NCBI GenBank assembly: GCA_020726505.1
Contig: JAHLEZ010000009.1
Span: 2,170,001 to 2,234,000 of the forward strand
DNA length: 64,000 bases
Direction of reading: 5' to 3'
Source of the DNA: Leptodontidium sp. MPI-SDFR-AT-0119
Lineage: Eukaryota; Ascomycota; Leotiomycetes; Helotiales; Leptodontidiaceae
The translations under genes were made by a program, and so were the position numbers. A model generated the notes under the pieces. The model made no database searches and was not told the DNA's origin. It saw nothing but the letters and a program-made list of their open reading frames with translations. Within the stretch, counting starts at the first letter, position 1. The number at the start of each line of letters is the position of its first letter. Below, one piece after another: positions 1-14,044 of the stretch.

Positions 1-2
1 CG

Positions 3-3000
3 GATCGCACAGCACCAAACCAGTTCCAGAAGAGGACTTTTCGTCCAAGGAACCCTTCTAATGATCGTACGAATAGGAAATGTATTGTTTGTAAGAAGGA
101 AGGTTGCTGGTCAACAGATCATCCGGAGGCAGAGCAGAAAGCCGCGTGGGCGAAGGTCAAGAATCACCTAATGACCGAGTTCAATGGATCCGAGGAAGCA
201 ACTCAGGCTTTCTTAAGCTCGTACGAAGATTTCCCAAGGGAATTTGATTGTACGACAATAAAAGAAGTGCCAGAGGATACAGAGGAATGGAAGGACGAAG
301 ATGAGCCAGAAGGATTCTTTACGGAGTACGGGGAAGTCGACGGACGACAAATGATCCAAGTTCTAAACGACGAATCGACAAAACACGCCTTTTTGCAACG
401 AGACCCGACGAAGCATTCGTACGAAGGCGAGGTATTCGTCATTGGAGACAGATATTCGTCCGAAGTCTTCCAAGGGATTATGCCAGACAGCGGTGCTGCC
501 GGAATCTCTACCGCAGGAAAGCAACAAGTCCAAGCACTTCTGAAGCTTGACCCGTCGCTAGAAGTTGATCGTACGAGCAGCCAAACGCATACGATTCGAT
601 TTGGCAAAGGAGTAGCAGAATCAGAGGGATCGATACTCGTACGAACACCCATCGGGCAAGTGAGGTTCTGGATTGTTCCGACAAATACCCCGTTCCTGTT
701 ATGTATTCAAGATATGGACTCCCTCGGTGTACGATTAGACAACCTTCAGAATATTATGATTCAAGGGGATAAGAGAATTCCGATCGTACGAAAATGGGGA
801 CATCCATGGATGATGATTCATACGATGAAAGACACGTTCATGTACCAGCACTTCACGGAAACAGAGCTTAGGCAACTCCATCGACGCTTTGGACATCCTT
901 CAGTTGAGAAACTGTACCGCGTTCTTCAGCGAGCAGGACACGAGGAAACAAACCTTCGTACGATTGAGAAGATCTCAAAGTTCTGCGAACAGTGTCAGCT
1001 TCATACGAAGAACCCAGGTCGATTCAGATTCTCTTTAAAAGACGATATCGAATTCAATTTCTCTGTAATCGTGGATATTTTATATCTTTCAGGAGCAGCA
1101 GTCCTTCAAGCAGTTGACGAGGCAACCGGCTTTAATGCCGCTCGATTCCTAAAGGATAATTCAGCGAAGACAACGTGGATTACGCTTCGTACGTGTTGGA
1201 TCGATACTTACCTTGGACCCCCGGATTACTTCGTACACGATGCCGGGACGAACTTCGCATCATCAGAATTCAGAGCAAATGCTCGTACGATGAACGTCGA
1301 TGTAAAGGAAGTCCCAGTCGAGGCACATCAGAGTGTCGGGAAGGTTGAGCGGTATCACGCCCCTTTACGCCGATCGTACGAGATCATCTGGGACGAGACG
1401 AGAAGCGAAAACCTGGCAAAAGAAGTAGTCCTTCAAATGGCCGTGAAAGCCGTGAACGATACGGCTGGTCCAAACGGACTGATTCCAACACTTCTAGTTT
1501 TCGGAGCATATCCTAGACTTTCGTACGAAGACCCACCATCTGCGGATATGCTTACTAGAGCAAGGGCAGTTCGGATAGCAATGACGGAATTGCGAAAGAT
1601 TCAAGCCGTACGAAAGATCAAAGATGCTCAGAGTATAAGGAACGGCCCTGATATTACCGAGACCGTACGACTTCCATTACAATCTTCAGTGAAAGTATGG
1701 CGGGAGAAAAAGGGATGGACAGGCCCGTTTTCGTTATTATCGGTCACGGGGAAAGAGTGTGTTGTTCAATTGCCTTCAGGACCGACTTCCTTTCGTACGA
1801 CGGTGGTTAAGCCGTTTTACACGGAAGAAATCGCCGAGGCCCCGGAGGACCGTGTACGATCAGACCAGGTGTCTCCTTCAGTACGGCCAGTTGTCTTGAT
1901 TCCGTTTAAGACAAAGCAGGAACTCGAGAAGGGACTTGTACGATCACCAGAAGTTTTCCTGACTCGGAAAGAACAATCCGACTTAGACCTATCTCGTACG
2001 ATGCGAGCAGCAGGGAAGATCACCAGCCCTGGTCTTCCATTTGAAGAATCTCAACAAAAGGAGATTGATAGCTTGATTGCTCGAGGCGTATTTGAGTTCG
2101 TACGATACGACCCAAGGCAACATCGCGGACGGATCTTTAATTCCCGGCTTGTTAATGAAATCAAAGGGAAGACAACTGAAGCTCCGTACGAGAAATCCAG
2201 ACTCGTGATCCAAGCGTATAATGACGCGGGAAAGGAACAGATCCTCACTCAGTCTCCGACGATTCAACGGATCAGTCAGCGACTAATTCTGGCACTCTAT
2301 CCGTCACTCGTACGAAAAGGGTTATCGATCTTTATTCGGGATATTACTCAGGCGTATGTCCAGTCGACAACTTTTCTGAATCGTACGATCTATGCGAGAC
2401 TGCCAAAGCAAATTGCCAGCAACTACTCGCCGGATACAATCATGCTCGTACGAAAGCCATTATACGGTATCCCGGAATCAGGAACACACTGGTGGGGGAC
2501 GTACGACACACATCATAAGGTCAAGTTGCATATGGAAACGTCTTCGTACGATCCATGCCTTCTGATTACTCAACCAGGAATGCCGTTTGGAGTAGTTGGA
2601 ATGCAAACGGACGATACCCTGATCTTGGCTACTAACGAGTTCCAAGAGAAGGAGGAGAAAGAACTCGGGATTGCCGGTTTCTCTGCAAAACCGAAGGATC
2701 GTTTATCGTACGAATCACCCCTCGCGTTCAACGGATGTATCGTGCATGATCGAAAGGACTTCGTCCAAATCCTTCAGAAAGGGCAAGGCGAGAAGTTAGC
2801 TGAAGTTGACTTAAGAGCACCGGACCGTACGAACCAGTATCGGGAACAACGGGCTCGAGGGGCATATATCGCAACTTTATGCCAACCTGAAGCTTCGTAC
2901 GACCTATCAGTTGCGGCTCAATTCCAAGAACCAGAGGATACCGACGTAAAGAACTTGAATAAGCGCATTCAGTGGCAGATTCAAAACATCGGACGAGGAT

Positions 3001-3608
3001 TAAACTATATTCCTTTGGACTTACATCGTACGAAGTTATTTGTTTTTGTCGACGGATCCTTTGCGAATAACAAGGACTTAAGTTCCCAGCTTGGATACGT
3101 AATGATTCTCGGCACGGAGGACGACGACCCCGATTCGAACGATCAAGACTCGTTTCTTCTTTCTGGAAATCTATTTCATTGGAGTAGTACGAAGAGCAAA
3201 CGAGTAACACGAAGTGTCTTAGCTTCCGAGATTTACGGTATGGTTAACGGGGTTGATATGGCAATCGCGGTGAAGAGTACGATCGATATTATCACGTCGC
3301 GGCTTGAGATACCAGCGATCCCAATCGTTGTTTGTACAGACTCGTTCTCGCTGTACGAATGCCTCGTGAAGCTTGGCACTACGAAAGAGAAGCGGCTAAT
3401 GATCGATATCATGGCTTTGCGTCAATCGTACGAACGACGAGAACTTGCAGAAATCCGATGGATCAATGGTCAAGACAACCCGGCGGATGCGATGACGAAG
3501 TCAAACCCGAACAAAAGCTTGGAAAAGCTGATTGATAATAATCAGATTGTAGTACGAGTAGAAGGATGGGTTAAGAGGGAAAAGAAAGTAGAGCCAGGGG
3601 AGGAATAA
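3..3608 (+). CDS. copia Gag-Pol polyprotein, 5'-partial (protease, integrase, RT, RNase H)
   Basis: The frame is open from base 3, so the first ATG at 171 is internal and the true start lies upstream. In order I see a gag zinc-knuckle-like segment (CIVC followed by CWSTDH) near 84-125, a protease core DSGA near 486, an integrase zinc-binding part (LHRRFGH, then CEQC) near 875-1000, integrase catalytic residues in VDILYLSG (near 1070), HDAGTNF (near 1235) and VGKVERYH (near 1335), a reverse transcriptase with QTDD near 2608 in place of the usual YVDD, and RNase H motifs FVDGSF (near 3047), SEIYGM, TDSF and ADAMTKS. About 1,202 codons are present without a stop. The product would be cut by its own protease and would copy the element through RNA. 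Codons SYE, RT and VR/LVR recur because TCGTACGA is embedded in all three frames. A functional element is possible but not shown. Confidence 0.93.
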   Translation, partial: DRTAPNQFQKRTFRPRNPSNDRTNRKCIVCKKEGCWSTDHPEAEQKAAWAKVKNHLMTEFNGSEEATQAFLSSYEDFPREFDCTTIKEVPEDTEEWKDEDEPEGFFTEYGEVDGRQMIQVLNDESTKHAFLQRDPTKHSYEGEVFVIGDRYSSEVFQGIMPDSGAAGISTAGKQQVQALLKLDPSLEVDRTSSQTHTIRFGKGVAESEGSILVRTPIGQVRFWIVPTNTPFLLCIQDMDSLGVRLDNLQNIMIQGDKRIPIVRKWGHPWMMIHTMKDTFMYQHFTETELRQLHRRFGHPSVEKLYRVLQRAGHEETNLRTIEKISKFCEQCQLHTKNPGRFRFSLKDDIEFNFSVIVDILYLSGAAVLQAVDEATGFNAARFLKDNSAKTTWITLRTCWIDTYLGPPDYFVHDAGTNFASSEFRANARTMNVDVKEVPVEAHQSVGKVERYHAPLRRSYEIIWDETRSENLAKEVVLQMAVKAVNDTAGPNGLIPTLLVFGAYPRLSYEDPPSADMLTRARAVRIAMTELRKIQAVRKIKDAQSIRNGPDITETVRLPLQSSVKVWREKKGWTGPFSLLSVTGKECVVQLPSGPTSFRTTVVKPFYTEEIAEAPEDRVRSDQVSPSVRPVVLIPFKTKQELEKGLVRSPEVFLTRKEQSDLDLSRTMRAAGKITSPGLPFEESQQKEIDSLIARGVFEFVRYDPRQHRGRIFNSRLVNEIKGKTTEAPYEKSRLVIQAYNDAGKEQILTQSPTIQRISQRLILALYPSLVRKGLSIFIRDITQAYVQSTTFLNRTIYARLPKQIASNYSPDTIMLVRKPLYGIPESGTHWWGTYDTHHKVKLHMETSSYDPCLLITQPGMPFGVVGMQTDDTLILATNEFQEKEEKELGIAGFSAKPKDRLSYESPLAFNGCIVHDRKDFVQILQKGQGEKLAEVDLRAPDRTNQYREQRARGAYIATLCQPEASYDLSVAAQFQEPEDTDVKNLNKRIQWQIQNIGRGLNYIPLDLHRTKLFVFVDGSFANNKDLSSQLGYVMILGTEDDDPDSNDQDSFLLSGNLFHWSSTKSKRVTRSVLASEIYGMVNGVDMAIAVKSTIDIITSRLEIPAIPIVVCTDSFSLYECLVKLGTTKEKRLMIDIMALRQSYERRELAEIRWINGQDNPADAMTKSNPNKSLEKLIDNNQIVVRVEGWVKREKKVEPGEE

Positions 3609-3810
3609 CATCGTACGATACGATGATTTCATTTGTCAAATGCGTGTTTTTCATTTCATTTCAGTCACTCATTTGAATACCGTACGAAACGATGGTTATG
3701 CATTTCTCGACCAAACAAATAATATCTAATACGACGATCGACTACCTAACGACCAACTGTCCAACGATAATCCAACAACGAATCGATTAAGGGAAATCTC
3801 CATTGGTTTC

Positions 3811-3834
3811 CTTCGTACAGGCTCCTGTACGAAG
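3811..3834. repeat. 11-bp perfect inverted repeat built on the TCGTAC core
   Basis: The arms CTTCGTACAGG and CCTGTACGAAG are perfectly complementary around a 2-base centre. The arms contain half-matches of the dispersed octamer. The site lies 200 bases behind the polyprotein stop, in the 3' non-coding part, and just beyond the 3' end of the antisense gene at 3979, so it might act as a terminator-like or regulatory hairpin for either transcript, or as a paired binding site. Confidence 0.7.
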
Positions 3835-3978
3835 TACTTATCCCAAGCACCGCGCAAAGGTTGAAGATGAGCTTGAGTCCATTCACTTGAAGGGAGCCTC
3901 CGTACGATGCCCAGAAGCTTGGCTGTGAGAAGGAATTGTGCTTGCAAACAAAAGGGAACACAAAAGATACGTACGAAG

Positions 3979-5084
3979 TTACAAGACAATCGGAGCATCT
4001 CTGGACCCATCTTCTATCAAGCCCCTTCGTACAGGTCCAGCAATGAGTCCCTGTGGTGCCCTCCGCACAGCAACCACTTGAACTTCGTCACTCTCGTTTC
4101 CTGAACCTCCGTCTTCGGACGATGAGTCCTCAGGAGGGGGATTACAACGAGCGGCATGATCTCGCCACTTGCAGTTACCACAGCTATCCCCGAAATGACC
4201 TTGAACCGAAGCACAGTCAGGGAAAGGCGTTAAGCCACGCCGGGAACATTCAGCACAAGGAACAGCTCGGACAACACCTCTCGATTGAATCAAGAGGGCA
4301 TTGACGTACGAAGGCCGATGTGTCATAAGCTGCTGGGGTGTGATGCGCCCTTGTACGAAGGCGACATCACGTCCTGGCATGGCCAAGACTGTTTGTTGCA
4401 ACGCATTATGACACAACGGGCCCAGCTGCTGCCCGCCGATAATGAGCATGGGATGGGCGTTGGCGTTGGCAGCAGCCAGCGCGGCATTGACGGCGTTGAA
4501 GAGAACAAGGGCCCTATACGATGTTAGTTCTTAGACAAAAGGACCGGAGGTTCGTACGAGAAGCTATATCCTGGGGATAAGGGCCAGCTCGTATGAAGAG
4601 AAAAAGACTAACATTGTGTGGTGTGGTGTGGTGTGGTGTGGCTACGCAGGCGTTAGTACCACCTCACTAAGGTTGCAGCAGCTGTGCGAAGCTAGTCTCG
4701 AGGGGGTAGACTTCGTACGAGGGAGAGTACTCACCTGGTTGTGGTGGTGGTGGTGGTGGTGTTGTGGCCTACGGAAGACCTTTCGTTAGTACACAGCGAC
4801 AACGAATCAGATTACCTTGCAGGCAAGGCGGAAAAGAGAGGCGCCGATTCGTACGAGGCTATCTCAGGTCGTACAGAGAATATCTGAGGAGGAGGAGAGC
4901 TGTACGAAGAAGAGAAAGGGGACTTACTGTTGCTGCTGCTGTTGTTGCTGTTGGTTGAAGAAGAAGAGAAGAAGAAGAGAAGAGGGAATTCAGAAAATCT
5001 CTTTTGTGCGTGGAAAAGGCTAGCAGCCAGCTGGCGAGAGACGTACGAGGAAGGAACGAAGTCGTTCCTTCCCAAAGCGGTCAC
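3979..5084 (-). CDS. Antisense spliced gene in copia A, Cys-rich DUF3716-like protein
   Basis: The last exon (4513-3979) is an open frame with a Cys/His cluster: CAEC, then PFPDC, then GDSCGNC, then WRDHAARC. This spacing matches the fungal DUF3716 type, followed by an acidic Ser-rich stretch. Upstream, three introns on the minus strand have good signals: 4815-4769 (gtaatc, TACTAAC at 4791-4785, tag), 4734-4642 (gtgagt, TACTAAC at 4658-4652, tag) and 4612-4514 (gttagt, AACTAAC, tag). Splicing them keeps one frame through a His-rich exon (4768-4735), a His/Thr/Pro exon (4641-4613) and into the last exon. That frame continuity supports a real gene transcribed against the retrotransposon. The 5' end is unclear: the frame is open back to about 5084 without an ATG, so either an upstream exon exists or translation starts at the ATG formed across the 4613/4513 junction. 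A nucleic-acid-binding role is inferred from the Cys cluster only. Confidence 0.65.
4615..4641. repeat. TGTGG pentanucleotide microsatellite
   Basis: Five or so tandem copies of TGTGG/GTGTG. Read on the minus strand it forms the His/Thr/Pro exon of the antisense gene. Confidence 0.85.
4738..4766. repeat. GGT trinucleotide microsatellite
   Basis: A run of GGT/GTT triplets. In the antisense gene it encodes a poly-His stretch in the second spliced exon recognised here. Confidence 0.85.
4927..4986. repeat. CTG/TTG run followed by GAA/AGA purine run
   Basis: A CTG-rich triplet repeat (about 4927-4953) is followed by a GAAGAA/AGAG purine tract (about 4957-4986). On the minus strand these read as Asn/Ser-rich and Phe/Ser-rich sequence of the antisense gene's upstream frame. 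The purine tract could also be taken for a polypurine tract, but it lies more than 250 bases before the probable LTR. Confidence 0.75.
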
Positions 5085-5239
5085 TATTCAACATAGCGAG
5101 CCGAAGTCACATGGAGCACGTGCTTCGTACGAAGGAAGAAGAGGAGCTGGGGATAATGCGCTAGGTTGCGCGCACTTCGTACAGAGGAGAAAGAAGGAAG
5201 GTAGGAGAGTTTTTCTTCTGACAAAAGAAGAGTTGCCAG

Positions 5240-5514
5240 TGTTGGGATAGCCTTAGCTGAGGGGCATTCTCTTACTCTGACAGCTTCCAAAGATAGTCGT
5301 CTCTCCTGGCCGAGATGAAGCTTGGTTTCATACCTTGCCTCCTGGTTTCGTACGAGTAATGCTTATACGAGCTACGGGGTTTAGTACTTGATGTATTTAA
5401 GGTAGCTTTCCCTTTCGTACGAAAGGGACACACGGAATATACTTGATCAAACTTCACTTGTTATATTCTTTGTCACCCTGATATCAGGTATCGGACCTTG
5501 GTTAGATACCAACA
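5240..5514 (+). repeat. Probable 3' LTR of copia A
   Basis: The segment starts TGTTGG and ends CCAACA, a 6-base terminal inversion with the TG...CA form of LTRs. It is 275 bases long, a normal copia length. A purine-rich stretch (ACAAAAGAAGAG, 5221-5232) precedes it and could be the plus-strand primer. Two TCGTACGA copies lie inside. The gypsy relic resumes directly after 5514. The upstream partner LTR is outside the window, so the borders are inferred from the termini and the junction only. Confidence 0.55.
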
Positions 5515-5519
5515 CTAAC

Positions 5520-8500
5520 TCTCTTCTTCCCTAGCGATTACCTTAATAAGGCCGTACTACTTATTAAACAACTTCCTTAAAGGTTAGTTAACGTTTTAGT
5601 TCCGAGTGTTAACTAGTACTAAGTCGCTAATGTCCCAGTCGATAACGCGTCGCCCACGATTCACTAATCATTTTATTTTCTCTTATTAAACCTTAAGGAA
5701 CAATTGTACGATTTTTGTAACCTCTTTTATTCACAATACTACTTAAAGAGCCTTCTCTCGATTAAGTTTCTTTATTATTATAGCCGGAGGCTTTAAGTTA
5801 ATTAGGTCCTAGGAAGTCCTTAGCTTAACGCCGTTAAGTAATTAAAAAGGGGATAAGCAGCCTAGGGACTCGTGTAGTAACGTTAGTTAAGTAATATTTA
5901 TAATCAGTAAGAGATTACTTTAATTATCTTAATAATAGTAGTAAAAGGGACGAAGCCGCTACTTAATATATTAGTTTATTACCTCCGTTTAGCCGTCGAC
6001 GTTCGAGTTATACGCCGTCGTTAGCTTTACCTTAGTTCCGAGGATGTGATAATACTTTTTTTAAAAGGAGAAGACAAACTGAGGTCCACGATCCGAGATA
6101 ATAAAGTCTGGCATACCAAAGTATCAGGTCTAATAAATAAAGAAGAGAATAGCTATACCTTTCGCGGTAATTGTATTATTGCAGGGTATTAAGACTAGCT
6201 TCTTAGATAAGCAGTCGATAATAACTATAGCAAAGTTGTAGCCGTACTTGTTTAGTAGTAGCTTCGTAAAGTCTATCGTTAAGTGTTAATACGGCTAAGT
6301 AGGAATTAGTAAGGGATGCAAGAAACTAGGAGTCTTATTCCTATAGGCCTTTTGTCGAGAGCAACTATAGTTTACTACGTATTAAGCTATGTTCGTAACG
6401 AGGTCGTTCTAATAATATTTGCGACTTAGCAGTACCTTCATTTTTCTGATCCTTACATATACTACCGAAGGTTAGGAATGTACGTAGCGAATAAGTGTCG
6501 TGTGAAGCTCCGGCGGTTCTAAGGGCATTTTTAAGCGTCCTTAAAAAAGCAACTTGTCGTTTATTAGCTCGTAATTTAATGACTATTTCCTGGCTTTTTA
6601 TCAGAGAGGCTCTAGCAAAGGCGAAGACTTATTAACTAGGAGCACTTGATTAATAATATTATATTCCGCGATATTATAAGCTATTATAAAGTTAAGGTTA
6701 AGCTTCTTCGCGATAGGGGTCTCCGGGTCGATTAGCACTCTTGTATTTGGCTCGGGGTCTGGCTTTGGCCCGTCACGTGTCTCAGCGTCGTAATCCGGGA
6801 TTATAGCCTCCACAGGTGCTAAGGGTATAGTCCCTACGACTTCGATATAAGCGTTTATGAGGTCAACGGCGAAAAGTTAAAGATCGCTAGTGACTCGCGG
6901 GTTAATTTTATTTATTAGAATTAATTGTTAATTGCGAATAGCCCGCTTACGTGCCTTTGTGATCGTGAGGTTCTAATCCCGTTAAGATAGGGTATTAGTT
7001 AGCGTATTAGTAGTCTTAGTATAATATATAATCGTAAAATAGAAGTTCGCCAAGAACTCAACTCATCGCGCCTACTTAGCGATAAGGTTCTTAGTAGTTA
7101 TAAAATACTCTAGGGCTCGGTAGTTTATGTAAACAAGGACATTTTTCTAGGCACCTAAGAGCTCTGGGTGATATTGCTTAAATAACCAGAAAATCGCTAG
7201 TATTTCTTTATTATAAATAAGGTAATTAAGTTCGGGATCCGTTATTATCTTAGAAAAGTACCCTACTAAGTAATAAGTACCGTTCTCTTGCATTTAAGAT
7301 AGGATTTTAGCAACGACTTTATCCGAAGAGTTAGTCTTTAGTCACGTTTGCTTTACAAGGTCGTAGTAGCGAAAAACCGGCGTAAATTGGAGGGCTTCCC
7401 AAAGAGTCTCCCACGCGTTCTTACAAGCGTTGTCGAAGATAAAGGGGATGTTCTTCCCGATAAGTATTATAAGCGGTCGTGTAATACGATTATAATCCTT
7501 AATAAACTGGCGATAAAAGTTACAAAAACTAAGATAGCTTTATATATTCTTAATATTGTTAGTGTATCGCCAGTTCTTGATCACGTTAATCTTCTTTAGG
7601 TCTACCTCTATGCCATCGACTTCGATAATAAAGCCTAAGAACTTCGTCTTTTGCACACTAAACTTAGACTTCTTAATATCGGCCTGAAGTCCGTGTGCTT
7701 ATAATATTACTATTACCTTCTTAATATAGGCCTCATACTCCTCGGGAATTAATAAGTATATAAGGATATCGTCCATATAGGTAACGCAAAAGTCGTCGAG
7801 ATGCTTTATTAGGATATCGTTAATAAACCACTGGAAAATCGCCGGTCTATTAGTTAAGCTAAAGGAAAGAACCTTATACCTATACGTGCCGTATCGGGTT
7901 CGAAAAGTCGTGTAATCCTCGCTCTCGAGAAACATGCGAATACAGTAAAAGGCTTACTAAATATTAAGCTTCGTAAAGATCTTTGCCTTAGAAATACGTG
8001 TTATTATCTCATCGATTAGAGGGATCGGGTACGGGTTCTTCTTAGACAAGGTATTCAGCTTCTGGTAGTCGACGCATAGCCGGAGATTGCCATCGGCTTT
8101 CTTAGTAAAAAGAATAGGGGTCGTATATAATACGCTAAAGGGCTTAATAAAACCTTTATATAAGTTATTAATAATATACCGCTTAGTCTTTAATAGCTAT
8201 TCTTTAGTTATACGCTAGAGAGGTTCAAAGGACAAGTCGTTCTCCTTAGTAAGCTTAATCTAATGATCTACGTCCTAGCGATGCGTTAGTAACTCGTCGA
8301 AGGCTCGCCGGGAGAAGAGAGGAGTATACTCTTAATACTTTACCGGGAGCTTCTTACTTACTAGTTCGTCGTCTTACGTGTATTTAGCCTCTAGGGCCTC
8401 CTTTAGGGTTAAGTCTCTATTTATCGATACGAGCTTGATACTTAACTAATCTAAGGCCTCTCACCGGCGACGAGTTAACTCTTAGTTAATCTCACGTATT

Positions 8501-10790
8501 AATGCCACGAAGGTTTGCACCTTATTCTTTTTAGCCTTCTTAGGTCGGAGGTACGTCGTAGATATTACTACCGCTGATATAAGGAAGATTTCTGTAGTAA
8601 GTTCCTTTAGCTAGTGATTCGCTAAAGAGGCTTCACGAGCTCTTTTATCTTTAGGTAGTGGTCCCGGGTCACGGGATATTAAGGGGTTTAATTAATTTTC
8701 TATAACTCGTAGGCGCTTTTTGACTTCTTTAGTAAAGCTCGAGGGTCGAGTCGGCGAGACACTGGCGGTAGGTCGTATAAAAACCTTTATCTTAAGGGAA
8801 TCGTCGAGTACCGCAAGCCTAACTTATCTCTGGCGGTAGTTATTTATGTCCATAAGGGCATTTCTTTGTTCCGTATTAAGCTAGTGAGACTTAATAATTA
8901 ACTTATTAAAACAGTTAATGTCGACGAAGACTCGCTGGTTAAAGTACAATTAAACGGGCATATTTAATAGCTATTTTAGCCGATTGCGGTTCTTCGTATA
9001 TAACTGCTTTAGGTCGTAATACTCGAGGAACTTCCAATTAATCAGGACATCAGTGTTTCTTAAGTTAGTCATTAGGAAGGGAAAATTAATTCGCCGGCGG
9101 TCGATTGTTAAGGTAAGTAGGACGGCCGTATCGATTGGCTTGCCTTTCCTGCTATTATAGTTAATTGGGACGATTAGTTAAGGGAGAGATATAAAAGAAA
9201 TATTAAATTACTTAACAAATTAATATGCGAAAGAGGTTTTAATAGCACCGAAAATATTAACTTCACTATTAATATATACAAGTGTTTTAGTAAAGAATCT
9301 ATTCCTTCCTAGTTTAATATTAATTAAGAATTATTGCCTTTTAATAAAGGCACGAAAATCAAATACTAAGTTCTTCCACAAGTTATAGCCTATACTAAGG
9401 TGTAAGTCTTTGCCACAGCCTAGGAGTTTTTTAATAGCTCGTTAATCTCCAAATCTTCACCAACGACTAACTAAGAAATCGACTTATTAAGAGCCTAGTC
9501 TCTATGGCGCTTGGGATAATCGCTAGCCTAATGGCCGGTCTTACTACAATAGAGACAGGTGTCAGAAAAGACGTCCCTAGATATAAGAGAAGGTACAAGG
9601 GACTTAAGTCGGCGCAAAACGGGCGAAGGAGAGGACGTACGCGGGCGGACATCCGACGATTATCTTAAAGTCAGTAGTCTCTATGCGTAAGCAGCGGGGG
9701 TAAGTGAAGTCGAACGCTAATTGTCCTTTTTTAAGATACCGCGCGAGTCGCTAATACTAATGTTATTAAAAGAGACTCGAGGGGCTTCGCGAACAATAGT
9801 GGTAGCACGTCCATTAGCTTATTCGATAGCGATATTCCGCAGCTCGCGATTTGAGACGATTAAGAACTCGTCAAGAGCCGTATAGTCTCCGGCGAATTCA
9901 TACTTCTTAGTTTAGATATCATACTTAAGCTCATTTGAGACTTTCTCGCACACGTCGTCGAACTATTAGTTAGGTGAGATTTTTCCCATAATCGCGTATA
10001 TCGTAAACTTAGTGCGAAACTCATTGTAAGTTATACTACTTATTTATAATTAGTTATACTTGAGCTTAGTAACTTGTACTCGATTATAGTCAAAGAAACG
10101 CTAGTTTAAAGCCTTTAAGACATTAGCGGCTTCGTTAAAGTCTCTAGCGAAGTTAGGGTTTATTCGTTAAAGGATAATAGTCTTAGCTTCTCCCTTCGTA
10201 CACTTAAAATAGGCATAAACCTGCGATTCGCCGGTAAGAAAGTTACCCGAGTACTTTTAAATAAAGAGCTTTATATCTATCTTTTAAGCGTCGTATTTAA
10301 TTTCGCCCTTATAATTACTAAAAGGGGTACGAGGGTACTTGACCTTATTAGGCTCGACGGCAGGGATAGCAGGGTTTAACTTCGGGAGGTAATAGTCGGC
10401 GGTTAGCTGGAGGTCCACCGTAAAAGCACGTGTTAATTAGTCAAAAGGGGAAGAAGTGCGAGTCTCTTAACGAGGGTTATCGGTGGCATATTAAGCAAGG
10501 GCCTGCGTAACGGCAGCGGCGACAATAAAGCTTACGAAGTCCTTAATCAGCTAATCTACCCTAGCTTGTTGAGCGGGGGTAAGGCCTTTTATATTAATAG
10601 GCTCTGGCGATGCGTCGAAGAAGTTTTAGGGTTTATTCTCCAGGTCTGAGTCGAATCCGTCAAAGCTCTCTAGTTCCTCCGAGAAAGTCTCGACCGAAGG
10701 GACGGGAATATCGGTAAAGCCTAGCCGCAAAGGGGCGCTCCTTTCTTTAAAGCTTCGCCGGCGAGGGGGAAAAGTTAGCAAAAGTAGTAA
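5520..10790 (-). pseudogene. Gypsy Gag-Pol remains (minus strand)
   Basis: Recognisable pieces in 5'-3' order on the minus strand are: a Pro/Arg-rich gag start near 10790-10690; a zinc knuckle near 9560-9520 with CLYC and a following TGH but the last Cys lost; an RT fragment at 7935-7699 reading YTTFRTRYGTYRYKVL and YMDDILIY; and the integrase core near 6120-6040 (FGMPD...SDRGPQF). Stops and missense changes are everywhere and no long frame survives. The intact order of domains shows decay by point mutation, not rearrangement. It cannot encode a working polyprotein. Confidence 0.8.
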
Positions 10791-11072
10791 GGTAAGGTTA
10801 AGGGATATTTGAGGTTATTAATTAATTAATTAATTAATTAAATATGCGTTTTAAAACGACGGCGCGCGTTAAATTGCGGTAAGGCAGGTTAATCGCGAGA
10901 GAATATCTAGCTTTCTCTAAGACAGTCTACTACGAGGGTAGAGAAGTGCCTATCTATCGAATAAGCTAAGGTGTTAAGGCTTATTATTAACTTACTACAA
11001 GAGCAGGTCGATAAGGCGCAAGACCGGGTAAGATATAACGCTTTATAGCGAAGGGGTGTTAGTCTTTTCTTA

Positions 11073-11374
11073 TATTACGGCTAACTAAAGGTTGATACGG
11101 CGAGTTAACTTAAGCTTTATATTTGGGTCTAAGGCTACGCTTAGAATCGAGAAGAAAAGATAAGGAGGAAAGAAGAGCTCTCCGTAAGGAAGGGCTCGAG
11201 TATATATATATAAAGGACCCTCCTAATGGGGCCTAGCGTAGTCGAGTGCCATTCACGTCAACATGTCGCAGGCTCGCCACTTAATCCTCCCTATCGGGCT
11301 TAGCGCCGTCGCATAGCCAGCGATGCTACGAGCCCGTGTCGGTTAGAATACGAGGCGCATCGTAGGTCGTAACA
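11073..11374 (-). repeat. 5' LTR of the minus-strand gypsy relic
   Basis: On the minus strand it starts TGTTACGACC at 11374 and ends TAGCCGTAATA at 11073. The gypsy LTR at 37515 ends TAGCCGTAACA and shares CGTATCAACCT just before, so the ends are homologous and the final C is probably RIP-mutated. A TATA-like run (atatatatata, about 11201-11211) is inside. The length is 302 bases against 277 in the other copy. Confidence 0.7.
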
Positions 11375-12089
11375 TAATGTTAAAGAGTAAAGGGTTAATA
11401 TAGTCAATAACTTATGTATAGAGTTAATTGTATTTAATAACTAAGTTACTCTAGTCGCTCTTTTCGATAATAAAGACTTTAAAGGCTTTATTATATTCGG
11501 ATTCGACTACGGAAAAGAGTATTACCGGTGAGCCGTCTAATTATTTTATATTTTTCTTTTAAAAAAAACTTAGTCTCTATGTTAAAAACTAGTAGATTTG
11601 TTATAAGAGAAGGAACATCTAGTCCGTCAAGGTCGACGAGCGGCCAAAGGCCTCTATTATACGCTTGAGCTTGAAATTCAGTATTAAACTTAGTCTAGCC
11701 CTTCTGGTCCTTAATACGGTCGCTCCTGGAGTCGGCTATAGTTAATTTCTTAAGAATAAAGCGTAAATAAAGACGTGCGGTGATTGTTAAAAAAAGTAAA
11801 GAAAAAGATATAAAGTAGTATTTTACTAAGTATAAATTGTCGGGGCTTTAAGAGTTACATAACTCTTAACTATTACGTAAAATACTAAAGGGGTAAAGAA
11901 GTAAGAATTAGTAAAGTAGTAGGGAGCAAAAGATTAATTAAGAAGTGCTCTTGCCCTTTAGATTTAAGGGACAAGGCTAGCTATATATATATTAAGTAAG
12001 TAGGTTTAGCTAGCTACAGGTGCGCAGGAAGCACACCTGGCCGTCCATTAGGCTCGCGTAGCAGGTGCCGCTAGACATGTACTGTGACA
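11375..12089 (-). mobile_element. Fragment of an older LTR retrotransposon
   Basis: At 12089 the minus strand starts TGTCACAGTACATG directly after LINE sequence, followed by a TATA-like run (near 11980-11990), as in an LTR. Lower down (11760-11640) a minus-strand frame resembles gag sequence but carries stops. The gypsy LTR at 11374 interrupts it. I infer that this element inserted into the LINE and was later hit by the gypsy. The borders and family are uncertain. Confidence 0.4.
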
Positions 12090-12870
12090 GTCCTCTTTTT
12101 CTAAGAATTTATTCTAATGCTTTATTTTTACTATTTTAATAGTATTAAAGTATTAGTTTTTTGCTTCTTTTAGTTCTTCTTGAAATAAAGTATACTTTAA
12201 AGCTTTAGTCTTGCGATATAACCTTAGCATATTCTTCCGCAAGACTTTTAAGTCTTTATTTCACTAAGGTTTGCTATTAGTTGAGTGCTTTGACTTTGAA
12301 ATCGTCTGGTTGGCAGCTTCAACTATTTTACTAGTAAATATCTCTCCTAGCTTATCTAATTCTTAATTTGTATATATACAAGTAGTATTATAGTTAAAGT
12401 CTTAAAACGAGCTCTTAAGAGCTTGTTTAAACTTATACTATTCTACGTTTTTTATATTAAATCTTTAAGTTATAAGATGAGCTGTTTGAGTATTACTTGT
12501 AATAGTAAATAGGACCCCAAAGTAATCTAAGCCTGAGTCTGGCATAACTTGCCATTCTTCGATCTTATTAACAACTCCTTGAGTAGCAAATGTTAAATCA
12601 AGTACAAAGGGAGTTATTATATGAGGCCGGTAAAAAGTCCCTTCCCCTGGAGTATTTAGTAGATTTAAAGAGTGTTTTCTTATAATATCTAGTAAAAACT
12701 CGGCATTTAAGCCTGTAATTGCAGGGGGTCCCACCACGGGTGATGTGTATTAAAGTCCCCTAATAGTATTGTCTTCTCCTTGAATTCAAGGGGGAATAAA
12801 TCCGGCCTTTGTATTGTAGGTAAACTATTAAGGCCAAAATAGAATTATATTAGCAAATCTATGAGTTTTT
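12090..12870 (-). pseudogene. Tad-like LINE fragment: endonuclease domain and linker
   Basis: The minus strand reads GDFNTHHPWWDPL near 12765-12725, the hallmark of the endonuclease/exonuclease/phosphatase domain of non-LTR retrotransposons. It continues in the open frame 12737-12465 (AEFLLDIIRKHSLNLLNTP, DLTFATQGVV). Further on, FTSKIVEAANQT and a WWNKDL-like region lead towards the RT, which is not present. Only about 780 bases remain. The 3' part was lost or displaced at 12089 by an LTR element. It is lightly RIP-mutated and non-functional. Confidence 0.8.
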
Positions 12871-14044
12871 GGGCTACTGAAAGCAGGCCTCCAGGGAGAC
12901 TACATAATATAAGCAAGGCCAACGACCTCCTTGCCACGCTTTCCCAGACCTTTTAGGTTCAGTTCAAAGGCCCTTCGAGAGAGCTGCCCCTAGGCAAAAA
13001 CACTTCTCCACGCCTCCCACCTAGTTTGCTCCTTAAGGCTACGTGAATACCTCAAGGCCTTAACTAGACTTGTATCCCTCTCCGTAGACCGACACGCGCA
13101 TCCGTCCTCTCGAGCCATATAAACAATGTCTTTGTCGCTGCCATTATATGCTACGCCCCGCAGCTTTGCAAGCTGTTTCGCGTTACCTTACTAGATCTCT
13201 CCTCCCTACAAGGCCGACCGTGTCTCGCAGGACTTGCACGAAATACGCCCTTAGCCAAGTAATATACTTCGTGTGTTTCCATCCTACTAACTAAAACGCC
13301 GTCACAAAGCCATTCCATCTAATGTATAATTCGTCCGCGCAGATCGACCGAAAGTACGTTCGTAAAGAGGTTCGAAGGGATCGAGAGAGAGGTTTTCGTG
13401 TCCAGCCTGCATCTGCATAATCTTCCTTCAGTTTAGGCCATTAAAATCCCTCTTGCAACTGTCCAGCTTATTCCTTCTCCTCCAGCCTCAACTCTTGTGG
13501 GCCCCAGAGCCACTTCCCTCTTCCGCTGCTTCACTGGCCCCTAGAGACAGCTCCGCGCTTTCTTCCTTTCCCCCGTAGACTCCCCTAACCATCTGTAAGC
13601 CTCAGAATCGTGATTCCTACGTGCTGTTGATGTCGTGAAAACTCTGCGCGCTAGCGCCCTAGAGGTGACCTATCGATCAAGAAGGGTATTATACACTCAA
13701 GGGGATTCCCACGCGTTCGCAGGGCGTACCGTAACGAAGGGCCAGTACCTAAGTCTGGTTCTTGTCGTTGGATGGTTTTCATCTCCATTTGGTTGGTAGT
13801 CCTCTGTTCCAGGTCGAGTAGTAAAGACCTTCACTCCCAGTCCCTCCCCCGATTGAGGTGCAACCCCCCCCCCCCTAGCTCCAACCAACTCAATCTTAGC
13901 TCTCCAGACTCTCAAAAGAGAGCTAAAGGTTCGTAGGATGCACCACGTACAGGTGTTGAGTCTTCGCATCCCTAACAGGTCGGTTGTATTTCTCTTGCAA
14001 ACAAAGTTTACTTGCGTTTGCCTTTTCGAGTTTTGTGAATCCAC
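12871..14044. other. Transposon-derived sequence without a recognisable gene
   Basis: This stretch is less AT-rich than its neighbours and includes a C-run at 13867-13877. A 115-codon minus-strand frame (14044-13697) opens at GTG with a Lys/Arg/Asn-rich start, next to the putative LTR end at 14045. It could be the leader or gag start of that element, but I recognise no domain. Confidence 0.4.

Follow-up and report, generated by a model that had tools for sequence, protein, structure and literature searches.

The stretch analysed here (the window) comprises 64,000 nucleotides of Leptodontidium sp. MPI-SDFR-AT-0119, positions 2170001-2234000 of contig C69 in a genome of 77 Mb in 69 contigs. It begins inside a young Ty1/copia retrotransposon in which the palindromic octamer TCGTACGA is dispersed through coding and non-coding DNA alike. 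The octamer is not a by-product of the encoded protein. Such motifs, of which two further element families of the genome have their own, are very probably recognition sites in double-stranded DNA (dsDNA), and TCGTACGA would have been spread along the whole element by selection, so that a sequence-specific protein would cover copies of its own family and little else. The most likely reader is a small cysteine-cluster DUF3716 protein, predicted antisense in the same element, whose binding, by analogy with the VANC proteins of Arabidopsis, would counter heterochromatic silencing of its own family. Related elements use other motifs, and protein and sites would change together.

In the window, 28 exact octamers were found between 65 and 5422 and none in the remainder, the same count as in a preliminary description of this DNA. 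Its chance expectation of fewer than 0.1 exact copies was too low, as dinucleotide shuffles of the whole window (n = 100) contained 0.88 on average and 4 at most, still negligible against 28. Sites with one mismatch numbered 24 below position 6000, 23 of them within the element where about 25 near matches had been noticed, and 16 further along the window. The exact sites are the following.

65 to 72, TCGTACGA site
219 to 226, TCGTACGA site
417 to 424, TCGTACGA site
569 to 576, TCGTACGA site
637 to 644, TCGTACGA site
784 to 791, TCGTACGA site
956 to 963, TCGTACGA site
1283 to 1290, TCGTACGA site
1374 to 1381, TCGTACGA site
1521 to 1528, TCGTACGA site
1793 to 1800, TCGTACGA site
1994 to 2001, TCGTACGA site
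2098 to 2105, TCGTACGA site
2308 to 2315, TCGTACGA site
2381 to 2388, TCGTACGA site
2446 to 2453, TCGTACGA site
2544 to 2551, TCGTACGA site; 10 of 12 homologs with the motif have SYD here, whereas 81 of 106 others have TYD
2706 to 2713, TCGTACGA site
2895 to 2902, TCGTACGA site
3026 to 3033, TCGTACGA site
3426 to 3433, TCGTACGA site
3611 to 3618, TCGTACGA site, directly past the polyprotein stop
4552 to 4559, TCGTACGA site, in a probable intron of the antisense gene, judged from splice-like signals
4713 to 4720, TCGTACGA site, in a probable intron of the antisense gene, judged from splice-like signals
4849 to 4856, TCGTACGA site
5125 to 5132, TCGTACGA site
5348 to 5355, TCGTACGA site, in the long terminal repeat (LTR)
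5415 to 5422, TCGTACGA site, in the LTR

The whole element of 7,587 bp contains 37 exact sites; all three copies read whole, the two on contig C1 among them, have this number. The preliminary description had held that copies lacking the motif, or a motif equally common in unrelated sequence, would speak against its proposal. Neither was found: the 3.1-kb DUF3716 locus has 11-12 sites in every one of the 16 intact copies, and the motif is absent outside the element in the window. Genome-wide, TCGTACGA occurs 2,223 times and the reversed pattern 1,186 times.

The open frame of 1,732 residues holds 27 of the 37 sites, in phases 11, 9 and 7. For the open reading frame (ORF) initiated by ATG at 171-3608, the phases are 8/5/7, and the 8/5/8 given earlier was reproduced when site 65, in the same long open frame, was counted. 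Permutation of codons within each amino acid over the whole open frame (2000 trials) gave 2.8 sites on average and never more than 9, compared with the 27 observed, which upholds the earlier statement that the protein does not explain the motif. The other 10 sites lie outside the open frame, in the LTRs, the 3' region and probable introns, with two in the 3' LTR; that the motif runs on through non-coding DNA and the LTR had been described.

The sites keep apart from one another. The smallest gap between exact sites is 57 bp, which was reached in none of 5000 random placements, and when sites with one mismatch are included, 70 in all, no two lie less than 20 bp apart, compared with an expectation of 11.2 gaps that short. 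Apart from a weak bias to T/A at one base on each side, the flanks of the octamer have nothing in common. Such spacing would fit either a protein bound at the sites or a requirement for even coverage, and it speaks against tandem duplication; a tandem or low-complexity origin was rejected, as the sites have no common flanks and avoid one another.

By its terminal structure and its protein domains, the carrier is an intact Ty1/copia LTR retrotransposon, as had been proposed. It extends from C69:2167928 to window position 5514. Its two LTRs, 275 bp each, are identical, and a perfect 5-bp target-site duplication (TSD), CTAAC for this copy, was found in all 12 copies checked of the 16. In the polyprotein, Pfam placed the reverse transcriptase RVT_2 at residues 658-824 (E 2.4e-8, above cut-off) and, upstream of it, the integrase rve at residues 302-378, below cut-off (18.7 of 32.6 bits). 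The motif is bounded by the element as previously stated, but the edge had been set at 5422, whereas the element ends at 5514, having begun 2,073 bp before the window.

1 to 5514, plus strand, 3' part of the copia element (5,514 of 7,587 bp), going on leftward beyond the window
1 to 3608, plus strand, in-window part of the polyprotein open frame (1,732 residues), integrase before RVT_2
5240 to 5514, plus strand, 3' LTR of 275 bp, equal to the 5' LTR, TGTTGG...CCAACA, with two TCGTACGA sites
5515 to 5519, no strand, target-site duplication CTAAC

A six-frame search, in which 40 of 388 candidates were scored, gave at least 16 full-length copies whose protein is 100% identical; 15 of them have no stop, and one has a single TAG. 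The other 24 polyprotein matches are 49-93% identical. Two copies, 100% identical over 7,588 bp, form a head-to-head inverted pair about 1 kb apart within one older repeat (L009/L010, C1:454629-470815). At C34:1773339-1781206, a copy is apparently inserted in the LTR of an older one (polyprotein 93% identical, 22 stops). All 12 insertions checked (loci L040-L068) lie in AT-rich DNA, GC 0.30-0.41, which suggests insertion into, or survival in, mutated repeats.

Where the degenerate copy L035 could be aligned with the young element, there are 369 substitutions; 357 are C>T or G>A, and these are strongest at CpA (208 of 336). Since the changes are nearly all of these two kinds, the ancestor of L035 most likely had the same TCGTACGA sites; of 11 alignable sites, three are intact and eight are altered by C>T/G>A changes only.

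Other families of the genome carry other motifs. A second copia family (L070-L072; three copies, 89-93% alike, with 49-51% polyprotein identity to the first) has at most one TCGTACGA per copy, and CCGAATC is present 14, 14 and 9 times, both strands counted. The unit in L070 is a direct repeat of CCGAAWC with an 11-bp step, on both strands, and CCG-N8-CCG occurs 29 times against 3.1 expected. The best gapped pair reached log10 p -18.5; 60 shuffles did not go beyond -5.5, nor did 19 control stretches go beyond -7.4. These controls were 8 window chunks, 9 loci and both flanks of the C15 element described below. The family is large and heavily mutated, with at least 101 matches among 292 candidates; 16 of the 101 are to the first family.

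The third family, on contig C15, was identified as a Helitron by the Helitron_like_N domain (PF14214, E 1.8e-19). Here CCGTAA occurs 59 times against 13.2 expected, on both strands and mostly with R-N before it, and the 6-mer reached log10 p -19.7; simple repeats such as CCTCCTC, which score as high in the Helitron, were left out. The best 7-mers gave log10 p -11.2 in the second copia family and -11.5 in the Helitron, compared with -6.1 and -7.2 for the best of 60 shuffles each and no stronger than -6.7 in the control stretches. Per 500 bp, CCGTAA is absent from the left flank, numbers 3-7 in the Helitron and is absent from a nested insert, to the right of which there are 3 and 1 and then lone scattered sites; the ends of the Helitron were placed by this density only. 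The related copies L034, L037 and L039 have variants of the same words. The nested insert (L073+L074, C15 concatenated 11007-13096) has terminal inverted repeats, lacks the motif of the Helitron and is presumably piggyBac-like. In the window itself, an AT-rich repeat at 5516-12016 contains CCGGCGA 8 times against 0.6 expected, which is borderline relative to shuffles of other stretches.

Relatives of the polyprotein were sought among 5.8 billion proteins, with 735 hits, and the best 120 homologous polyproteins were analysed. They were read through protein only, by the TCGTACGA peptide signature SY[DE], VR and RT; a search for their DNA gave no match in viral or prokaryote contigs. In 14 of the 120, motif-compatible peptides exceeded expectation by a factor of 2.9 or more: 13 proteins had 13-26 where 3-5 were expected, and P0096 had 9 against 3.1. 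P0171 was intermediate (11 against 4.3) and the other 105 were nearer background. In a maximum-likelihood tree of 40 rows, with 25 of the 106 others sampled, the element, 12 of the 13 and P0096 formed one clade with support 100/100, which P0076, also enriched, adjoined with two unlabelled rows. A quicker tree of all 121 rows gave the identical clade plus P0146, with support 0.99.

Conservation was tested in the 13 relatives of the clade from the 121-row tree, not counting the near copy P0067. At the 64 columns encoded by the motif, they matched the element at 0.604, compared with 0.473 in columns matched for outgroup conservation, and none of 2000 resamples was as high. In the outgroup of 106, motif-encoded columns matched the element at only 0.41 (0.58 elsewhere), while the sister group of 6 showed no clear excess (0.442 against 0.410; 171 of 2000 resamples). 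An earlier test gave 0.627 against 0.471 and was partly circular, since it used 12 homologs picked for their motif-compatible peptides, one of which, P0076, is outside the clade. Motif positions are kept in the clade at about 60-70% protein identity. The motif thus appears to have replaced residues conserved in other homologs, one example being site 2544, with SYD in place of TYD.

A screen for other motifs left 11 of the 120 proteins past its threshold, seven with the TCGTACGA family of words. P0109, with 19 GTCGAGGT-compatible peptides against 3.1 expected, mostly in two phases, is possibly another family with its own motif. P0150 had AGCTCTAG 24 times against 6.0 expected, and two screened homologs showed CCCCCCCC, put down to composition.

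The candidate reader was recognised by Pfam on the minus strand of the element as DUF3716 (PF12511; E 2.7e-14, 53.3 bits against a cut-off of 22). The domain is free of stops in all 16 intact copies and has the cysteine spacing CX2C-X10-C-X10-C-X2-C-X8-C. None of the splice models tried gave an open frame for the exon structure of the antisense gene.

3979 to 4514, minus strand, final exon, as predicted, of the antisense DUF3716 gene
4141 to 4299, minus strand, DUF3716 domain PF12511 with six cysteines

PF12511 has 28 matches in the genome, in the 16 intact copies, one degenerate copy, four members of the Helitron family (E 3.3e-9) and seven other loci; copia and Helitron are unrelated element classes. 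A hidden Markov model (HMM) built from DUF3716 domains included those of the window and the Helitron and is circular for these two, so Pfam was relied on. No dispersed motif was found in the 3.1 kb examined at each of the seven other loci. Two DUF3716 matches at C56:2113778 and 2115489 (L026 and L030), less than 2 kb apart and with no dispersed motif, are perhaps host genes. The nearest outside relatives are P0067 for the polyprotein (96% identical) and P0001 for DUF3716 (98%), so that the gene decays no faster there than the polyprotein. For both, the source given is a JGI contig 5,528 bases long, probably one and the same. In a Blastomyces percursus homolog, DUF3716 is fused to GCR1_C, which is annotated as a transcriptional activator. 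A Pfam scan of six element ORFs gave copia domains and DUF3716 only, with no VANC domain (DUF1985/DUF287).

The second copia family has an antisense cysteine-rich ORF at a like position, with at least 150 genome matches among 233 candidates, many with stops. It was rejected as a carrier of DUF3716, HMM and profile comparison having found nothing; the protein search gave no homolog of this ORF and the PDB no match, so that kinship with DUF3716 is not demonstrable.

Use of both strands, the 11-bp helical step, the Helitron carrier and the spacing in the first family together point to dsDNA recognition, and a protein-binding site, one of the functions suggested in the preliminary description, is the most likely reading here too. 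Since the motifs are family-specific and differ between relatives, the reader would change with the element and would most simply be encoded by it. That DUF3716 is this reader is slightly favoured, while anti-silencing as the outcome is tentative and drawn by analogy; these gradings, like that of dsDNA recognition, are judgements. For the complete proposal, a dsDNA site with DUF3716 as its most likely reader and anti-silencing in the manner of VANC, the chances are even. They are a little short of even for a portable self-recognition module, DUF3716 plus a private motif, that unrelated fungal mobile elements (copia, Helitrons) would have in common, with the motif present in dozens per copy and strong enough to alter conserved polyprotein residues. 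The earlier interpretation is partly supported; it had missed the antisense DUF3716 gene, the spacing, the motifs of the sister families and the relatives elsewhere.

Several results weigh against this proposal. P0146, although a member of the clade, is not enriched (8 compatible peptides against 5.0 expected). In the aligned pol region of P0068-P0077 and P0080, from an alignment of 60 of the 120 homologs, compatible peptides at positions not common with the element numbered 30 against about 33 expected, and recent gain of sites is not seen in that region. Protection by the motif from repeat-induced point mutation is contradicted by L035, in which CpG bases of the motif were mutated at least as often (14 of 44) as those outside (65 of 318). 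The sites of the second copia family lie in close pairs, unlike those of the first, and the Helitron sites do not avoid one another (12 gaps below 30 bp against 12.9 expected), so the spacing rule is special to the TCGTACGA family. The predicted model of DUF3716 (pLDDT 84) matched no solved fold. Compatible peptides in DUF3716 homologs were discarded as evidence, since they are dominated by a single conserved FVRG column and higher scores are obtained with other palindromes. Finally, DUF3716 is not required for a dispersed motif, the second copia family having one without a recognisable DUF3716, and as read from sequence its link to the motif rests on two families in one genome.

Binding of the motif by a host protein (a transcription factor, architectural or replication protein) is unlikely. 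DUF3716 would then be a separate accessory gene, and the element would exploit the binding for expression, nuclear position or insulation. Dispersed dsDNA sites need no self-encoded reader, and the second copia family, lacking a recognisable DUF3716, is in keeping with a host factor; however, three families in one genome have three motifs where one host factor would favour one. Moreover, the occurrences of TCGTACGA outside intact copies, 2,223 minus 592 (16 x 37, extrapolated, with old copies still within the remainder), are not far above the control of 1,186. It is improbable that DUF3716 reads the motif as a copy-number or silencing factor rather than an anti-silencing one, through self-restriction, targeted integration near kin, or recombination. 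The nesting of copies in each other and in repeats would agree with it, as in the C34 copy inside the LTR of an older copy and the C1 inverted dimer, whose surrounding repeat is of the kind that also holds the C69 copy; nothing bears on this reading directly, but at least 16 full-length copies, 15 of them fully open, argue against strong self-restriction.

A role in RNA, with the palindrome UCGUACGA as repeated packaging or dimerisation signals along genomic RNA, is less probable still. Self-complementary sites spread evenly throughout the element would suit it, but the motif of the second copia family is non-palindromic, on both strands and repeated at a step of 11 bp, about one DNA helical turn, and that of the Helitron, an element without an RNA genome, is also on both strands. 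The use of both strands by these two families likewise makes the RNA-processing mark of the preliminary description unlikely as a general answer. A mutational or neutral origin, by drift, gene conversion, tandem duplication or composition bias, is hardly credible. No point was found in its favour, and the sites have no common flanks past the octamer except the weak one-base preference on each side, avoid one another, exceed the codon and dinucleotide nulls and are kept at homologous positions across the clade.

The finding offers a testable function for DUF3716, a domain found in fungi and so far without a known function. If DUF3716 proteins do read private motifs, they would be DNA-binding proteins of natural origin, each specific for a sequence that matches it. 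In the wider reading of a portable module, fungi would have a general transposon self/non-self code with co-evolving protein and motif.

Fungal regulators of the Zn2Cys6 (Gal4) type bind sites containing CGG/CCG, and CCG or CGA triplets are present in all three motifs, which take the form of a palindrome, a direct repeat or a single site. The DUF3716 cysteines look like a longer-looped version of the Zn2Cys6 spacing. This is a resemblance only, with no sequence or fold match: no PF00172-type Pfam hit at E up to 1 and no PDB match were obtained, although small domains are easily missed. DNA uptake sequences are also short self-recognition motifs running through coding DNA, but they are bacterial and host-wide, whereas TCGTACGA is confined to one mobile-element family. 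To our knowledge, the copia element would be the first retrotransposon with a coding sequence shaped to accommodate a DNA mark that is both dispersed and specific to the family. A literature search, weak because it covered open-licence papers only, gave no account of DUF3716 function or of dispersed retrotransposon motifs, and by title and start of abstract nothing on this for fungal transposon anti-silencing, copia antisense ORFs or VANC with Helitron.

The TET/JBP dioxygenases of fungal DNA transposons are, in the available passages of their description, accessory genes across several classes including Helitrons, with a proposed anti-silencing role (PMC12730594). They differ in being enzymes, and those passages describe no dispersed motif and report no retrotransposon with the gene (PMC12730594). 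In Arabidopsis VANDAL elements (Mutator), the element-encoded protein VANC binds a motif of 9 bases, which is concentrated in the family that encodes it, and removes silent marks (PMC5735166). The likeness lies in a transposon family strongly enriched for one short motif, with other motifs in related families (PMC5735166, PMC10398659, PMC12859917). That the element itself encodes the reader is shown for VANC in these sources and presumed for the fungal elements. VANC21 sites are described there as mainly non-coding, in one orientation and often in tandem repeats, whereas those of the copia element are palindromic, at least 57 bp apart and, for 27 of 37, in the open frame in all phases. The carriers are fungal copia retrotransposons and a Helitron instead of VANDAL elements, and the candidate protein is DUF3716 instead of VANC. 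With other element classes, another protein and sites in coding DNA, the fungal system is not VANC by membership; if the reading given here is true, the co-evolution of transposons and silencing could be studied in a second system, one that evolved independently of VANC.

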